Assembly (NCBI GenBank): GCA_947497315.1 | Contig: CANMFX010000002.1 | Coordinates: forward strand, 248,001-312,000 | Direction: 5' to 3' | DNA from: an uncultured Sphingomonadaceae bacterium | Lineage (GTDB): Bacteria > Pseudomonadota > Alphaproteobacteria > Sphingomonadales > Sphingomonadaceae | DNA: 64,000 nucleotides | Shown here: positions 4,687 through 52,466 of the stretch, piece after piece | Layout: each line of letters starts with the position of its first letter | Position numbering within the stretch: position 1 is the stretch's first letter | Program-made: the position numbers and the translations under genes | The notes under the pieces: generated by a model | What the model saw: the letters and a program-made list of their open reading frames with translations, nothing else | The model's database searches: none | What the model was told of the DNA's origin: nothing

Positions 4687-5556
4687 TTATTTGGTTTTCA
4701 TCGTTATGGATATCCGCCTATTCCGGTCATCCATAGGCTCTGCCGGATTATAGGGTTCTGTATCGGCCACGCCCTCGATCCGGGCCATGCGGCTCATCGA
4801 GACGCCTCTGCGGACCAATTCCTGCCGAGTGGCTTCTGCCCGAGCTGAAGACAACAGCCAGTTATTCATGCTTTGCCCGCTGGCATAAGGCAGACTGTCA
4901 GTATGCCCTCTGATGATCAGCTCGTTATCGACCGTATCGATGATCTTTGCGACCTCTCCTATGAGCTCTGCCGCTTTGGATTTCAGGTCGTCTGTTGCCA
5001 GCGCAAACATGCTGAAATCAGCTTCATCAATAATATCGATCCGCAGGCCTTCCTTGGTATCCGTAAACCTTACGTTTGACAGAAGTTTCAGGTTCCCCGG
5101 ATCGTTCTTCAACTGCTCACGGATGCGTTTTTCAAATTCCTTTGCGGTTAGGGTTTTTTGTGGGGATTCCGAGCCGCTGTATTTCCCAACAGTATCGGAC
5201 GGATTGTCAGAGGGCGGGCGCGGAATTGCGACCGATTGGTCTCCCACGTTTTTCGCCTTCTTATGAGGATATTTGTCAGGATCAGTGACGGAAGAACCGC
5301 CGAACATGTCTTTACCGCCAGCACTGTCCCGTTTCACCTGGGCGAGCGTTGGTGCGAAATAATCCGCAATACCTTTGCGCTGTTTCTCTTCCGTCGCGCC
5401 AAGCAGCCACATTAACAGAAAGAACGCCATCATAGCCGTCACAAAGTCAGCATAGGCGACTTTCCATGCGCCGCCGTGATGGCCGCCATGACCTTCGACA
5501 AAGACCTTTTTGACAATAATTGGTCGAACCGGTTCCGGTGCTGCTTTCTTGGCCAT
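4687..5556 (-). CDS. motB: Flagellar stator protein MotB
   Basis: A 289-residue inner-membrane protein. The N-terminus is cytoplasmic and His/Gly-rich (EGHGGHHGGAWKVAYADF), then one membrane helix follows (about 38-57) with the proton-carrying Asp at residue 37 (YAD). A periplasmic linker and a C-terminal OmpA-like peptidoglycan-binding domain follow (about 155-285, with IIRGHTDSLPY and NWLLSSARAEATRQ). This is the canonical stator partner of MotA, four bases downstream of it. All key parts are intact, so this pair is the expected torque-generating unit, in contrast to the shorter pair at 15085-16269. Confidence 0.96.
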   Translation of the reverse strand: MAKKAAPEPVRPIIVKKVFVEGHGGHHGGAWKVAYADFVTAMMAFFLLMWLLGATEEKQRKGIADYFAPTLAQVKRDSAGGKDMFGGSSVTDPDKYPHKKAKNVGDQSVAIPRPPSDNPSDTVGKYSGSESPQKTLTAKEFEKRIREQLKNDPGNLKLLSNVRFTDTKEGLRIDIIDEADFSMFALATDDLKSKAAELIGEVAKIIDTVDNELIIRGHTDSLPYASGQSMNNWLLSSARAEATRQELVRRGVSMSRMARIEGVADTEPYNPAEPMDDRNRRISITMKTK

Positions 5557-5559
5557 GGT

Positions 5560-6423
5560 TTATTTTGCCCTTATGGCATCAAATACGTCGGAGAAGCTTG
5601 GCTGGTTTTCATGCTGCAGGCTGGTGCGGGCCGCTTCGATGATCAGCGGCTGTGGATGGCCGTGCAAACTGGCAATGATCAGCTGTTTGGCGACATGATA
5701 AATGCTCGCATCGCTCTCGATGACCGAGCGCGCTCGATTGGCCATCGGGCCGACCAGACCATAAGCCAGCAAAACCCCAAGGAAGGTTCCGACGAGCGCA
5801 GAACCGATCATGCCGCCCAATATGGTCGGTGGTTTGTCGATAGAGCCCATGACTTTGATAATGCCCAAAACAGCGGCAACAATGCCCAGCGCAGGCAAGG
5901 CATCGGCCAGCCCCTGAAGATTATCGGCCGGCGCAATCGCTTCGTGATGATGCGTTTTGATGGCCTGGTCCATGACGTCTTCGACGGCATGGGGGTCGAG
6001 TGTACCGGAAGATACGACGACAAGCCTGAGGCTGTCAGCAATCAGGTGGATCAGTGTGTCGTCCTTCAGCAGTTTTGGATACTCGCTGAATATTGGTGAC
6101 GCTTTGGGATCCTCGATATGCGGTTCCAGAGCAACCGGGCCTTCGCTTTTCAGGATTTTTGTCAGCTTGGAGACCAGCAAGATGCAGTCCATGAAGTCCT
6201 GTTTGACGTAGGTCGGGCCCTTAAAGACTTTTCCAAAGCCGCCCATCAGTGCCTTGAGTTGCGCGCCGCTATTGCCGATGATCAGCGCGCCAACCGCCGC
6301 ACCACCGATAATGCCCATTTCGACTGGCAGGGCGGCGACAACGACGCCCAGGTCACCACCGGACACCAGGAACACGCCAAATACCATGACAAGCAGGACA
6401 ACAATACCAATTCCAGCGAACAT
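5560..6423 (-). CDS. motA: Flagellar stator protein MotA
   Basis: A 287-residue inner-membrane proton-channel subunit with the MotA family layout: two N-terminal membrane helices (about 3-20 and 32-50), a large cytoplasmic loop that contacts FliG, and two C-terminal helices with ALPALGIVAAVLGIIKVMG and GALVGTFLGVLLAYGLVGP. It forms the stator ring with MotB encoded directly downstream. The 129-base gap to flgL upstream could hold a separate promoter, and a weak terminator-like hairpin lies there. I found only an imperfect sigma-54-like sequence in the gap and do not call it. Confidence 0.96.
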   Translation of the reverse strand: MFAGIGIVVLLVMVFGVFLVSGGDLGVVVAALPVEMGIIGGAAVGALIIGNSGAQLKALMGGFGKVFKGPTYVKQDFMDCILLVSKLTKILKSEGPVALEPHIEDPKASPIFSEYPKLLKDDTLIHLIADSLRLVVVSSGTLDPHAVEDVMDQAIKTHHHEAIAPADNLQGLADALPALGIVAAVLGIIKVMGSIDKPPTILGGMIGSALVGTFLGVLLAYGLVGPMANRARSVIESDASIYHVAKQLIIASLHGHPQPLIIEAARTSLQHENQPSFSDVFDAIRAK

Positions 6424-14482: not shown

Positions 14483-14836
14483 TTATTCCCCTTTCAAGGC
14501 GCGTTTGATCGACGACACCTGTCCATTCAGAAAGGATAGGGTGGTGCGATATTGAATGGCGTTCTCGGCAAACAGGGTCTGCTCCACCGCCAGTTCGACG
14601 GTGTTGCCGTCAAGCGAAGGTTGCAGCGGCACGCGAAAACCGGTGTGATCGCTCATCGCTTTGTCGATGGAGCTGCCTTTTTGTGCCTGCTGCATCGCCC
14701 GATCAAAATCGAGATCCTTTGCCTTATATCCAGGCGTGGATGCATTCGCGATGTTAGAGGCAAGCATGTTCAAACGCTGCGAACGCAATTTTAGCGCCCC
14801 ACCGTTTAATGCTAATACTTGGTCCAAACTCGGCAT
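14483..14836 (-). CDS. flgB: Flagellar proximal rod protein FlgB
   Basis: The start is at the ATG at 14836 (MPSLDQVLALNGGALKLR), with AGGA ten bases upstream; the open frame runs to 15031 but those 65 extra residues overlap the promoter below and are not FlgB-like. The 117-residue product has the rod signature RSQRLNMLASNIANASTPGYKAKDLDF. It is the first gene of the minus-strand flgBCDEFGHIJKL run and lies about 78 bases from the predicted transcription start of a sigma-54 promoter. Confidence 0.93.
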   Translation of the reverse strand: MPSLDQVLALNGGALKLRSQRLNMLASNIANASTPGYKAKDLDFDRAMQQAQKGSSIDKAMSDHTGFRVPLQPSLDGNTVELAVEQTLFAENAIQYRTTLSFLNGQVSSIKRALKGE

Positions 14837-14925: not shown

Positions 14926-14940
14926 GCAAAGGGCGTGCCA
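14926..14940 (-). promoter_or_regulatory. Sigma-54 promoter of the flgB operon
   Basis: On the minus strand the sequence reads TGGCACG-CCCT-TTGC, a perfect -24/-12 element with the invariant GG and GC exactly 12 bases apart. It lies upstream of flgB and reads toward it, so the flgBCDEFGHIJKL group is expected to need sigma-54 and an enhancer-binding activator. Confidence 0.88.
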
Positions 14941-15023: not shown

Positions 15024-15043
15024 ACCGGCAAGTTTTTGCCGGT
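15024..15043. promoter_or_regulatory. Palindromic enhancer-like site between flgB and the stator-like pair
   Basis: ACCGGCAA-GTTT-TTGCCGGT is a perfect inverted repeat with 8-base arms. It lies about 110-130 bases upstream of the expected flgB transcription start. Its CCGGCA...TGCCGG core resembles the Caulobacter FlbD-binding (ftr) elements as I recall them, so it is a good candidate site for one of the two sigma-54 activators encoded in this locus. It also lies 42 bases upstream of the divergent gene at 15085. Confidence 0.55.
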
Positions 15044-15084
15044 TACCGGAAAAATTTTGCCGCTTTCAGAAAAAGCGCGATCTG

Positions 15085-15780
15085 ATGGATATTATCCTCA
15101 GCAATATCGACCGGTTTTTTGACCCGCTATTGTTCGGCATGGTGCTCGGCAGCGTGTTAATCATGGCCTGGATCCAGAATGGCCGTGCGTCTTTCGCTCT
15201 GGCCTTTGCCGCGCTGCTGAACAGCGGCCGGGATCCTTTTGCAGAAAGCGGAGAGAATGCCACTTTCATGTGTCGCCGCATTGATTTTGTACTGCGGGAA
15301 CAAGGACTTGTCGGGTTGGAAAAGGTGCGTAGCGAAGACGCATTTGTCACTCGTGTGATTGGCGAATTGCTCAGCGCCAAGGATGCCAAAACCTTTGAGG
15401 AGTGGGCCCGGTTACAACAAAGTATAGTCCAAAAGAAGCAAGATATTACCGCAACTTATTGGAGCGCCGCATCTGAAATCGCGCCGGCGATCGGACTGAT
15501 CGGAACGATTCTCGGCCTAATTCAGCTATTTGCGACTGGTATTGATCCAATGAAAATGGGCCCTGCCATGAGCTTCACGCTGCTTACCAGCCTCTATGGG
15601 TTGTTTGTATCCCACATTATCGCTTTTCCCATCTATGTGCGTTTGCATGCCAGGGCAGAGATATTAAACAGCTATCGGGCTGCGGTTGTGCAGCATGCGA
15701 TTGCAATTGCCAAACGGGAACTTGTCATATTGGGCCCGGTTCATTTTTCTCCGGCAAAACCGTTGAAGGCGGCGGGTTGA
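15085..15780 (+). CDS. MotA/TolQ/ExbB-type proton channel protein (non-canonical stator-like)
   Basis: A 231-residue membrane protein that is neither a copy of MotA at 5560 nor a normal TolQ. A membrane helix lies at about 13-32. After a cytoplasmic stretch, two long C-terminal helices (about 127-150 with EIAPAIGLIGTILGLIQLF, and 160-186 with SFTLLTSLYGLFVSHIIAFPIYVRL) match the MotA_TolQ_ExbB channel core. The gene is followed three bases later by a small MotB/TolR-like gene, so the two should form a proton-driven complex in the inner membrane. Both sit between flgB and flgA, inside the flagellar locus. No clear ribosome-binding sequence or sigma-54 site precedes it. Role is inferred only from domains and context. 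Confidence 0.8.
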   Translation: MDIILSNIDRFFDPLLFGMVLGSVLIMAWIQNGRASFALAFAALLNSGRDPFAESGENATFMCRRIDFVLREQGLVGLEKVRSEDAFVTRVIGELLSAKDAKTFEEWARLQQSIVQKKQDITATYWSAASEIAPAIGLIGTILGLIQLFATGIDPMKMGPAMSFTLLTSLYGLFVSHIIAFPIYVRLHARAEILNSYRAAVVQHAIAIAKRELVILGPVHFSPAKPLKAAG

Positions 15781-15783
15781 GCG

Positions 15784-16269
15784 GTGAACGCAGGACGCAC
15801 CACCTTGTCCTTTCTCGATCTGGCGCTGATGTTACTCAGTGCATTTGCCTATGCGCATTTTGTGAATATTGCAGATCCGGAAACGCGTGCGAAATTAGCG
15901 GAGGAAGCAGCTAAAGCCCCCAAGATACTTGGTGCCTATGATTATAAGGCAGATGCGTTTTTTGAAGATAGTAACGCCATGTTGACGGAATTTGCCCGAG
16001 GGGAAATCTCCGAAATCGTTGCTCTCCAGCAGAATCAGTTGCTTACCATATATGTTCCTCCGGTCGCTGAAAGCAGGGAAGGGCAAAGGTTGCGGCAATG
16101 GGAAAAAGTGGCCGCCCGCTCAGCAGCGATTGCGGATGCTTTTGAAAAGGCGGGCCAGGACGGTGAGATGATAATATTGAAAATGCCGGATAAGCTGGTG
16201 TCCAAGGCCAAAGAGAAACAGGATATCAGACTGGTATTTCTGCCGCCGGGAAGCCCTGTTTCAGAATAA
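15784..16269 (+). CDS. MotB/TolR-like protein with degenerate periplasmic domain
   Basis: A 161-residue protein with a GTG start. After a very short N-terminus there is one membrane helix (about 9-26) with an Asp at residue 12 (SFLDLALMLLSAF), the position of the proton-carrying Asp in MotB, TolR and ExbD. The periplasmic part has no intact OmpA-like domain: the region around LRQWEKVAARSAAIADAFEKAG (about 107-128) faintly recalls the MotB helix with NW...SARAEA, but the GHTDS-type strand is missing. It is the obvious partner of the channel protein just upstream. It may be an accessory stator or a torque-independent energiser; peptidoglycan anchoring is doubtful. Confidence 0.7.
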   Translation: MNAGRTTLSFLDLALMLLSAFAYAHFVNIADPETRAKLAEEAAKAPKILGAYDYKADAFFEDSNAMLTEFARGEISEIVALQQNQLLTIYVPPVAESREGQRLRQWEKVAARSAAIADAFEKAGQDGEMIILKMPDKLVSKAKEKQDIRLVFLPPGSPVSE

Positions 16270-16341: not shown

Positions 16342-16839
16342 ATGCCCCATTTTCGTCTAGCCATTCCCCTATTGTCCGTTTTTGCAATGGGCGCGGCCTC
16401 GTCCTTTGAAGATACAGATCATCTGGATCGTCAGGTGGCGGTATATCTTAATGCAGATATTGGTGATGCCGGAGGCGCCCGTGCTCCAATAGATAAAAAG
16501 CTGCGATTGAAGCGTTGCCCAAATCGCGTCCGCTTTTCAGAAACCAATAACAGCGCCGTCATGGTCAGCTGCCCTGATCTTGGATGGAGGGTGTTTGTGC
16601 CCCTGTGGCGCGGACAGGGACGTGCAGCTGCTCAAAACAACCGCGCAGAGGAATTTGCTGTCCGCAGGAACCAGCCGTTAAATCTTGTGGTCAGGCGGCC
16701 CAGTTTTAGCATTAGCTACAAAGTGGTGGCGCAGAAAAACGGAAGAATAGGGGATTACATTCCCGTTCGCTCCAGCCGCAAATCCAAAATATTGATGGCC
16801 CGTGTGTCCGGAGCAGGTGAAGTGGAGCTGGCTCAATAA
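16342..16839 (+). CDS. flgA: P-ring assembly chaperone FlgA
   Basis: A 165-residue periplasmic protein with a signal peptide (LAIPLLSVFAMGAASS). The middle contains the SAF-domain-like FlgA pattern CPNRVRFSETNNSAVMVSCPD-GWRVFVPL, with a likely Cys pair. The C-terminal part shows RNQPLNLVVRRPSFSIS and the GRIGDYIPVRSSRKSKILMARVSGAGEV ending seen in the family. It helps FlgI polymerise into the P ring. Its own sigma-54 promoter and AGGAAA ribosome-binding sequence are visible. It is separated from flgI here by the whole flg arm. Confidence 0.85.
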   Translation: MPHFRLAIPLLSVFAMGAASSFEDTDHLDRQVAVYLNADIGDAGGARAPIDKKLRLKRCPNRVRFSETNNSAVMVSCPDLGWRVFVPLWRGQGRAAAQNNRAEEFAVRRNQPLNLVVRRPSFSISYKVVAQKNGRIGDYIPVRSSRKSKILMARVSGAGEVELAQ

Positions 16840-22563: not shown

Positions 22564-22578
22564 TGGCACGCGGATTGC
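22564..22578 (+). promoter_or_regulatory. Sigma-54 promoter of the activator-fliE operon
   Basis: TGGCACG-CGGA-TTGC is a perfect -24/-12 element, 59 bases before the activator start at 22638. The genes that follow are packed closely up to flhB, so this promoter may drive a very long transcript. Confidence 0.9.
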
Positions 22579-22637: not shown

Positions 22638-23909
22638 ATGATCAACAACGCGACAAAATCTAGCCTGGTCTCTAGGTTTCCAGAGCTTGTTGATATGCTC
22701 GAGAGTGTAGAAACTTTCCACTCCGACCACACATTGTCATCTACCACTGCGCAACTACCCCACATTGATGGCGCAGCGAAAAAAGGTGCTAATGGTGGTA
22801 CAAAAGATCCCATCGTAATTTATCGCGATGGGCCATTCCGTTTCGTTCCGGCTACCCTCAGCCAGCCCCCACGCATTGAATTTGGTGAGGCAGACAAAGT
22901 ATTTGGTCTGTCGTGTATCATCGAGTCCATGCGCGGGGGCAAAGGGCCCGCCTTTGCGGACCCGAAATCTGTTGCCTTATATAAATATGCCGCCCGGGTG
23001 GCGAGCAGTGATGCCAATGTCATGATTACCGGCGAAACCGGTACGGGGAAAGAAGGCGTCGCAAGATATATTCACGAACATAGCACGCGCGCTGACAAAC
23101 AGCTTGTCACCATCAACTGCGCAGCGATTACCGAAACAATGATCGAGTCCATTTTATTCGGTCACAAGAAAGGTGCCTTTACAGGCGCCTATGCCAATGC
23201 CGTTGGTCTGTTCAAAGAAGCTGACGGCGGTACGATTTTCCTCGACGAGATTACCGAGATGCCACTGGAAAGCCAGTCAAAGCTTTTGCGCGTTCTGCAA
23301 GAAGGTGAAATTCTTCCCGTCGGCGCAACGCGTCATGAGAAAATTGATGTTCGCGTCATTTGTGCGGCCAACCGCAATTTTGCCGAAGAGGTCAAAGCCG
23401 GAAAATTCCGCGAAGATCTGTACTGGCGTTTGAATGTGATGCCGGTTGAACTGGAACCGCTTGCGGCTCGCCCGGCTGATATTGTTGCAATAGCCACATT
23501 CATGATGATGGACCTTCAAAAAGGTCGCGACAAATTCATCGCATTGTCACCATCCTGCATCGATCGTCTTAAAGCGCATCACTGGCCAGGTAACGTCCGC
23601 GAGCTTGCCAATGTACTACAACGCGCATTGGTCATGTGTGACGGCGATCGTCTTGAGGCCAAAGATCTTATGTTCTCTGGCGAAAGTCTGACAGCCCAAC
23701 CGAAGCAAGATGCCGTGCAACCTGGTAGTTCCGCCCGCTTTGTCCGCGGCCGCGACCTCCACTCCATTTCCAAAAGCGTTGAATATGACGCGATAACCAA
23801 AACGCTCGAACAAACCAACGGTAACCGCCGTGAAGCTGCGAAAGAGCTTGGTATTTCAGAGCGGACGCTACGCTATCGGATGGCCGATATGCGCGCGCTC
23901 GCGGCTTGA
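22638..23909 (+). CDS. Sigma-54 enhancer-binding activator (FlbD/FleQ-like), receiver-less
   Basis: A 423-residue activator. Residues 1-110 form an unrecognised N-terminal region without receiver phosphorylation residues. The AAA+ domain follows with Walker A GETGTGKE (132-139), the sigma-54 contact loop GAFTGA (179-184) and the Walker B region FLDEITEMPL. The C-terminal Fis-type helix-turn-helix is TLEQTNGNRREAAKELGISERTLRYRMADMR. Position between fliC and fliE and its own sigma-54 promoter indicate a flagellar regulator like FlbD of Caulobacter. It probably activates flgB, flgA and flhA-fliA promoters. fliE follows 14 bases after it. Confidence 0.9.
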   Translation: MINNATKSSLVSRFPELVDMLESVETFHSDHTLSSTTAQLPHIDGAAKKGANGGTKDPIVIYRDGPFRFVPATLSQPPRIEFGEADKVFGLSCIIESMRGGKGPAFADPKSVALYKYAARVASSDANVMITGETGTGKEGVARYIHEHSTRADKQLVTINCAAITETMIESILFGHKKGAFTGAYANAVGLFKEADGGTIFLDEITEMPLESQSKLLRVLQEGEILPVGATRHEKIDVRVICAANRNFAEEVKAGKFREDLYWRLNVMPVELEPLAARPADIVAIATFMMMDLQKGRDKFIALSPSCIDRLKAHHWPGNVRELANVLQRALVMCDGDRLEAKDLMFSGESLTAQPKQDAVQPGSSARFVRGRDLHSISKSVEYDAITKTLEQTNGNRREAAKELGISERTLRYRMADMRALAA

Positions 23910-52364: not shown

Positions 52365-52466
52365 GACAGAGACGCAGCAAGCACCGTGCCAAGCCCAGAA
52401 AAGTGGGAGTTTCGCGATCGCCAATATAGTTAACTGTAAGTTAACTCGACAGTTGAGGCCCGAAAA

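Follow-up and report, generated by a model that had tools for sequence, protein, structure and literature searches.

A single 5:2 engine is believed to underlie flagellar stators, the Tol and Ton energisers and the gliding motors and, to our knowledge, how one kind of this engine turns into another is not known. The channel subunit of the stators PomA/PomB and MotA/MotB has four membrane helices and its partner carries a GHTD motif; TolQ/TolR and ExbB/ExbD are built from a three-helix channel subunit and a short partner with a membrane Asp. The flagellar cluster examined here contains, in addition to motAB, an extra gene pair, ORF A and ORF B, with features of both layouts. The pair is like the stators in the MotA_ExbB fold of A, to which PomA is nearest by sequence and by structure, in the membrane Asp of B, in having relatives of B with MotB_plug and OmpA domains and in its flagellar locus. 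It differs from them in that TM1 and the GHTD motif are absent, B is short, a rotor-facing Arg is not conserved across the family and the ordinary stator is also present. The superfamily, the three-helix A and the short B with its membrane Asp are common to the pair and to TolQR/ExbBD, but the match to the latter is weak (TolQ 0.014), B folds like OmpA/MotB and there are no tol or ton neighbours. Membership of the TolQR/ExbBD group was rejected, as PomA is nearest by sequence and the neighbours are flgB and flgA. AglRQS and GldLM, as described in the accessible parts of two reports (PMC9389320, PMC9120999), are MotAB-like or 5:2 units for work besides turning a flagellar rotor; they serve here as a functional parallel to the pair and, unlike it, are not flagellar.

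The window, by which we mean the whole stretch of 64,000 nucleotides that was analysed, has this pair at 15085-16269, as confirmed by reading of the ORFs and by Pfam and NCBIfam searches (Table 1). Coordinates and family assignments also uphold what an earlier note, made from the sequence by a model, had placed around it, namely canonical motA-motB at 4687-6423 and flgA after the pair. ORF B has a GTG start, three bases past the stop of ORF A, that is backed by same-genus copies. Downstream of flgA are flgM, flgN, a lytic transglycosylase gene, flhA and fliA, named by position and by reading of their translations. The source genome (nine contigs, 100% complete) has six MotA_ExbB matches, which are a TolQ-type and an ExbB-type gene (with partners, named by reading, and located elsewhere than the pair), two canonical motA and two ORF A genes. 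The second copy of the pair (P0004, P0003) belongs to another flagellar cluster (C1, at about 904-920 kb), in which motB, motA and flgL to flgB are on one strand and A, B, flgA, flgM, flhA and fliA on the other. This copy sits in the same slot, so that each cluster has one canonical stator besides one extra pair.

Table 1. Features of the extra pair, its neighbours and its control region in the window.
Feature	Position	Strand	Evidence or remark
ORF A, channel subunit of PomA/MotA type with three membrane helices (231 aa)	15085..15780	+	Pfam MotA_ExbB 3e-16
ORF B, short subunit of MotB/PomB type with one membrane helix (161 aa)	15784..16269	+	ORF, AlphaFold, Foldseek, hhalign
Asp12 codon of ORF B, presumed ion carrier	15817..15819	+	invariant in 93/93 B proteins
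OmpA-like periplasmic domain of ORF B (residues 50-153), without GHTD	15931..16242	+	AlphaFold secondary structure, Foldseek
flgB, divergent from the pair	14483..14836	-	TIGR01396 over cut-off; start Met of MPSLDQV inferred from translation
flgA, next gene downstream of the pair	16342..16839	+	ChapFlgA 8e-11
Canonical motA, same flagellar cluster	5560..6423	-	TIGR03818 330 bits, cut-off 303.8
Canonical motB, same flagellar cluster	4687..5556	-	MotB_plug 1.1e-19, OmpA 2.7e-12; GHTD in translation
Sigma-54 -24/-12 type box, TGGCACG-N4-TTGC, flgB strand	14926..14940	-	perfect match
Further sigma-54 type box, TGGCACG-N4-TTGC	22564-22578	+	perfect match
Further sigma-54 type box, TGGCACG-N4-TTGC	52377-52391	-	perfect match
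Two palindromes, CGGCAA-N4-TTGCCG, 21 bp apart	15026-15041, 15047-15062		second with one mismatch

When up to two mismatches are allowed, 159 of the 170 loci have a sigma-54 box on the flgB strand no more than 200 bp from A (mean of shuffles 4.9); across the whole window, the total of such matches is not above chance. For A itself there is no clear sigma-54 box (10 of the 170 loci with up to two mismatches, against 2.5 in shuffles), and the flgB|A gap has no clear promoter for A. At least one GGCAA-N2-8-TTGCC sequence occurs in 130 of 155 distinct upstream regions (shuffles 1.8). The palindromes in the window, which we take to resemble Caulobacter FlbD sites, are perhaps the binding site of the sigma-54 activator encoded at 22638-23909. 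Paired CGGCAA-N4-TTGCCG palindromes, 21-24 bp apart, are also found before two other flagellar genes (18368-18383/18389-18404 and 29375-29390/29399-29414).

The pair was found in 108 of 249 sampled Sphingomonadaceae genomes (family in the GTDB sense), beside flgB in 107 and at a contig end in one (G310). A full-length A was counted in 111 genomes, three of which (G152, G190, G188) have a different gene, beside flbD, and were left out; as two loci (L203, L204) hold a diverged A, and L203 also a B, 108 is a lower bound. A is beside and divergent from flgB in 98 genomes by coordinates and in nine more by reading of the locus, and B is the next gene after A, in most cases overlapping it by 4 bases. 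FlgB was matched in 171 of the 249 genomes at E<=0.001, in 151 of them over the cut-off, and all 108 genomes with the pair are included, which bears out the earlier proposal of a second, flagellum-linked energiser. Besides family A, 106 of the 108 have at least one further match at E<=1e-5, the other two (G179, G258) having one match. A scan of named genomes gave 111 relatives, and the best 80, which were kept, are from Sphingomonas, Sphingobium, Blastomonas, Rhizorhabdus, Zymomonas mobilis and its kin, and a few unclassified metagenome bins. The order flgB-A-B-flgA is complete in 76 of these 80 loci, three others lie at a contig edge and in one (L239) A is below the filter. The loci read in this synteny survey, a comparison proposed in the earlier note, sit at flgB/flgA and not at tol or tonB genes. 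Between B and flgA of two clade III loci there is a GGDEF-like gene (named by reading) on the opposite strand (L062:8468-9568 (-), L115:3375-4298 (-)). An order-level search with two B sequences gave matches in 7 of 147 genomes, one of which (G011) has a different MotB-type pair. This genome, from another family of the order, has two tandem MotB-like genes beside a CheZ-like gene (L018:1387-2777 (-), named by reading), the first-listed with GHTN and the second without GHTD.

Twenty-five loci were read from genomes in which no full-length A was listed; in 18 of them flgB and flgA leave no space for the pair, so that the flagellar cluster does not need it; the remaining seven are the two with a diverged A (L203, L204), two with FlgT_N/LPP20 genes (L056, L189) and three without a detected flgA. 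FlgT_N- and LPP20-type proteins surround the motor in Vibrio. The genes of this type, named by Pfam for L056 and by similarity for L189, take up the space between flgB and flgA in one genus that lacks the pair (L056:5144-6600 (-), L189:5331-6902 (+)). Their presence in that slot would fit a periplasm-directed energiser with a Tol/Exb-like layout, in which ion flow works on parts of the basal body, such as the P-ring or rod, during assembly. We consider such an energiser distinctly improbable: the three-helix A with a short B does resemble the ExbBD/TolQR layout, the anchor is eroded and the operon includes flgA, but the sequence is PomA-like and not TolQ/ExbB-like and, as flgB and flgA are neighbours in those 18 loci with no pair between them, ring assembly there does not require it. 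For the specific P-ring or rod role that had been suggested nothing was found in support, flgA being merely the next gene of a longer operon.

In a class-wide sample of 289 genomes, the next relatives of A are four-helix PomA genes, and no flgA or flgB was present within the ~1.5 kb flanks of the 26 best non-family loci; flbD is nearby in 23 of these and a MotB-type gene is downstream in three. These loci lend no support to a spread of the order flgB|A|B|flgA through the wider Alphaproteobacteria. The best class-wide relative of A is the alphaproteobacterial PomA gene between fliN and flbD, which differs in having four helices, other neighbours and, in those 23 loci, no adjacent B. This PomA-type gene next to flbD, in most cases following fliN and lacking an adjacent MotB, is found in 23 of the 26 alphaproteobacterial loci and in three Sphingomonadaceae genomes (for example L102:6160-6819 (-), L103, L104, L162-L187). 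An anti-phage system was rejected, as neither A nor B has a PADLOC match; the PHROGs matches, to A and to the second B, are weak and of unknown function.

The earlier description of A as MotA/TolQ-like holds for its first half, since A belongs to the PomA/MotA family, and not for its second. In the NCBIfam ranking PomA is best (2.2e-23, well below the model cut-off), with TolQ at 0.014 and ExbB at 0.021, and among the sequences of solved structures PomA is first (1.3e-16), MotA next and TolQ at 0.004. The AlphaFold model of A (mean pLDDT 91) has PomA 8brd as its top Foldseek match (3.4e-9), followed by MotA and then by ExbB and TolQ, and begins at the equivalent of TM2; the alignments used for modelling held the window protein with 42 (A) or 53 (B) of 78 named rows. 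TM1 is missing in all 94 family A proteins compared and present in 26 of 26 other alphaproteobacterial PomA, with 5-20 residues ahead of the TM2 column in family A versus 29-50 in these PomA. The cytoplasmic domain is still present. A tree of A was made by a quick method from 85 rows (25 of the 49 in clade I, all 9 in clade II, 18 of the 36 in clade III, three fliN-flbD genes, 26 PomA, two MotA, TolQ and ExbB); clades II and III are joined with a support of 97, and clade I appears as one side of a branch with a support of 16; the tree does not firmly separate the family as a single clade from other PomA. For clade I there is one B fewer (48) than A (49), since one locus (L086) stops at a contig edge.

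Pro134, Thr141, Gly172 and Pro182, in the pore of A, do not vary among the 43 clade I rows or among 26 rows that span the three clades, and Thr168 is kept in at least 90% of clade I rows; the 26 rows (alignment A5) were hand-picked, as were the 27 of alignment A6. Thr141 and Thr168 presumably correspond to threonines that matter for sodium in PomA. At the rotor-facing positions, which we take to be Arg90 and Glu98 in MotA numbering, the Arg is present in 26 of 26 other alphaproteobacterial PomA versus 7 of 49 clade I, 3 of 9 clade II and 16 of 36 clade III proteins. An acid near it is found in 49 of 49 and 9 of 9 proteins of clades I and II; in clade III at least 15 of the 36 proteins have one, counting the 15 with Glu. 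Both charges are present in the A of the window itself, as Arg71 and Glu79, and with the acid present throughout clades I and II contact with the rotor is possible.

Neither Pfam nor NCBIfam gave a match to ORF B at E<=1. The membrane Asp, which had been expected to be conserved, is invariant (93 of 93 B proteins); a pattern for it matched 76 of 78 named loci, and the misses, seemingly L235, where the Asp comes after residue 45, and L268, which has a Thr within the motif, both carry the Asp. In the AlphaFold model (mean pLDDT 85, 54-row alignment) the order of periplasmic strands and helices is that of an OmpA-like fold. Foldseek gave 88 matches to it at E<=0.001 (best E 3.8e-6, query TM-scores about 0.5), the best 50 of which are OmpA-type, YfiB, MotB, PomB and similar domains. 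With the fold present in the model, a plain loss of the OmpA domain from the window's B was rejected, and the idea of a B without an intact anchor stands for the missing GHTD motif but not for the fold.

Across the family, GHxD is present in 0 of 48 clade I, 1 of 9 clade II and 0 of 36 clade III B proteins. At E<=0.01, Pfam OmpA matches all 53 clade I relatives, 8 of the ten proteins in the clade II set, which includes the second copy P0003, and none of the 36 in clade III; for MotB_plug the counts are 47 of 53, 8 of 10 and 0 of 36, respectively. The window's B alone has neither, unlike its clade I relatives. The Pfam search of 54 B proteins listed OmpA and MotB_plug and no ExbD family. By hhalign, clade I B aligns with MotB at a probability of 96 (E 2.6e-9), in agreement with the descent from a MotB-type protein proposed earlier, and clade III with clade II at 96.5; clade III has a probability of 11.6 against MotB and, weakly, 45 against clade I. 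Traced through these sequences, the peptidoglycan-binding domain of B decays stepwise from clade I to clade II to clade III. Among the 110 distinct B proteins (of 126) in which the clade I ligand residues were counted, 75 have Asp at the position of the GHTD Asp, which is Ser or Gly in the window's genus, and all 110 have the partner Arg, positions that we take to be those binding diaminopimelate in OmpA. Peptidoglycan binding is possible in clade I, in which the OmpA fold is retained and 75 of the 110 proteins still have the ligand Asp. The linker of B is about 21 residues in the AlphaFold model; a TolR linker of >25 residues is stated, in the accessible part of PMC4646322, to suffice for reaching the wall, and with the two lengths this close linker length by itself does not decide whether B reaches peptidoglycan.

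These features bear on whether the pair is a true second torque stator, with A touching FliG and B gripping peptidoglycan through a divergent OmpA domain, that provides a second gear or has another ion preference. This is unlikely in our view, given that TM1 is lost throughout, the rotor-facing Arg is scattered, GHTD is absent from clades I and III, clade III has no recognisable OmpA domain and the canonical motAB is also present; pointing towards it are PomA as the nearest solved structure, the retained cytoplasmic domain, the acid at the Glu98 place together with the window's Arg71, the Pfam OmpA domains of all 53 clade I relatives and the conservation of Thr141 and Thr168. The dN/dS ratios, 0.020 (A) and 0.092 (B), are taken from L037 and L039 alone, two same-genus copies with unsaturated dS, most other same-genus dS being saturated or undefined. 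Together with the recurrence of the gene order in 107 of 108 genomes, they mark the pair as more than a chance arrangement. A decaying stator relic without function is very improbable in the light of these values, of the membrane Asp in every B and of an internal stop in only one genome (G207) among the family A matches listed, although the losses of anchor and TM1, the faster evolution of B than of A and the absence of the pair from some flagellated genera would be expected of one.

Judged from sequence, the pair is very probably dedicated to the flagellum and of PomAB descent. The strict link to the flagellum, the conserved ion channel and the decay of the anchor, all of them established, as are the homology to PomA and MotB and the loss of TM1, by comparison of sequences, are best explained by an auxiliary flagellar 5:2 ion-driven rotary unit, descended from PomAB, that relies less and less on peptidoglycan. 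As stated, this explanation seems to us slightly the better side of an even bet. Counted in its support were gene order, the copy in each flagellar cluster, the Asp, the pore residues, TM1 loss, the OmpA gradient, Arg loss and dN/dS, and counted against it Arg71/Glu79 in the window, the OmpA fold of clade I, the linker length of B and absence from some flagellated genera (18 of 25 loci). As four-helix A and GHTD, two defining features of a stator, are both missing, the pair is not filed as a stator despite its PomA/PomB lineage by sequence, although it may function as one. A preserved ion channel with a worn cell-wall anchor suggests a role probably other than ordinary propulsion, and an accessory role at the motor has, we estimate, an even chance of being correct.

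In the auxiliary unit envisaged, five A would surround two B and ion flow past Asp12 would turn A around B, as in other 5:2 motors. The short linker and decayed ligand loop of B suggest that its pair of domains would be gripped less by peptidoglycan than by a partner that is flagellar or lies near the membrane. The unit would then act next to canonical MotAB in the basal body, as an accessory and not as the main torque source, by recruiting, activating or braking MotAB or by carrying out small periplasmic work. Tentatively, one basal body might have two 5:2 units, a wall-anchored MotAB that turns the rotor and a second, off the wall, that turns against or pushes a part of the basal body, and the family would then be a stator becoming an energiser of Tol/Exb layout.

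The open-licence literature searched, including the accessible parts of PMC9389320, PMC9120999, PMC6347639, PMC9797736, PMC4646322 and PMC10954123, yielded no description of the extra pair. In the part of PMC9797736 available, Zymomonas genes beside flgL are named motA1 and motB1, a naming that hints that the annotators knew of a second pair. Within this literature, a variant in the flagellar cluster, beside ordinary motAB and with surviving intermediates, appears to be new. Many flagellated sphingomonads, Zymomonas mobilis included, carry in their flagellar gene cluster an unexplained second ion-driven unit, a stator-type pair that keeps its ion channel while its anchor decays and a helix is lost, and a lineage in which the intermediates survive bears on how one 5:2 engine is converted into another.
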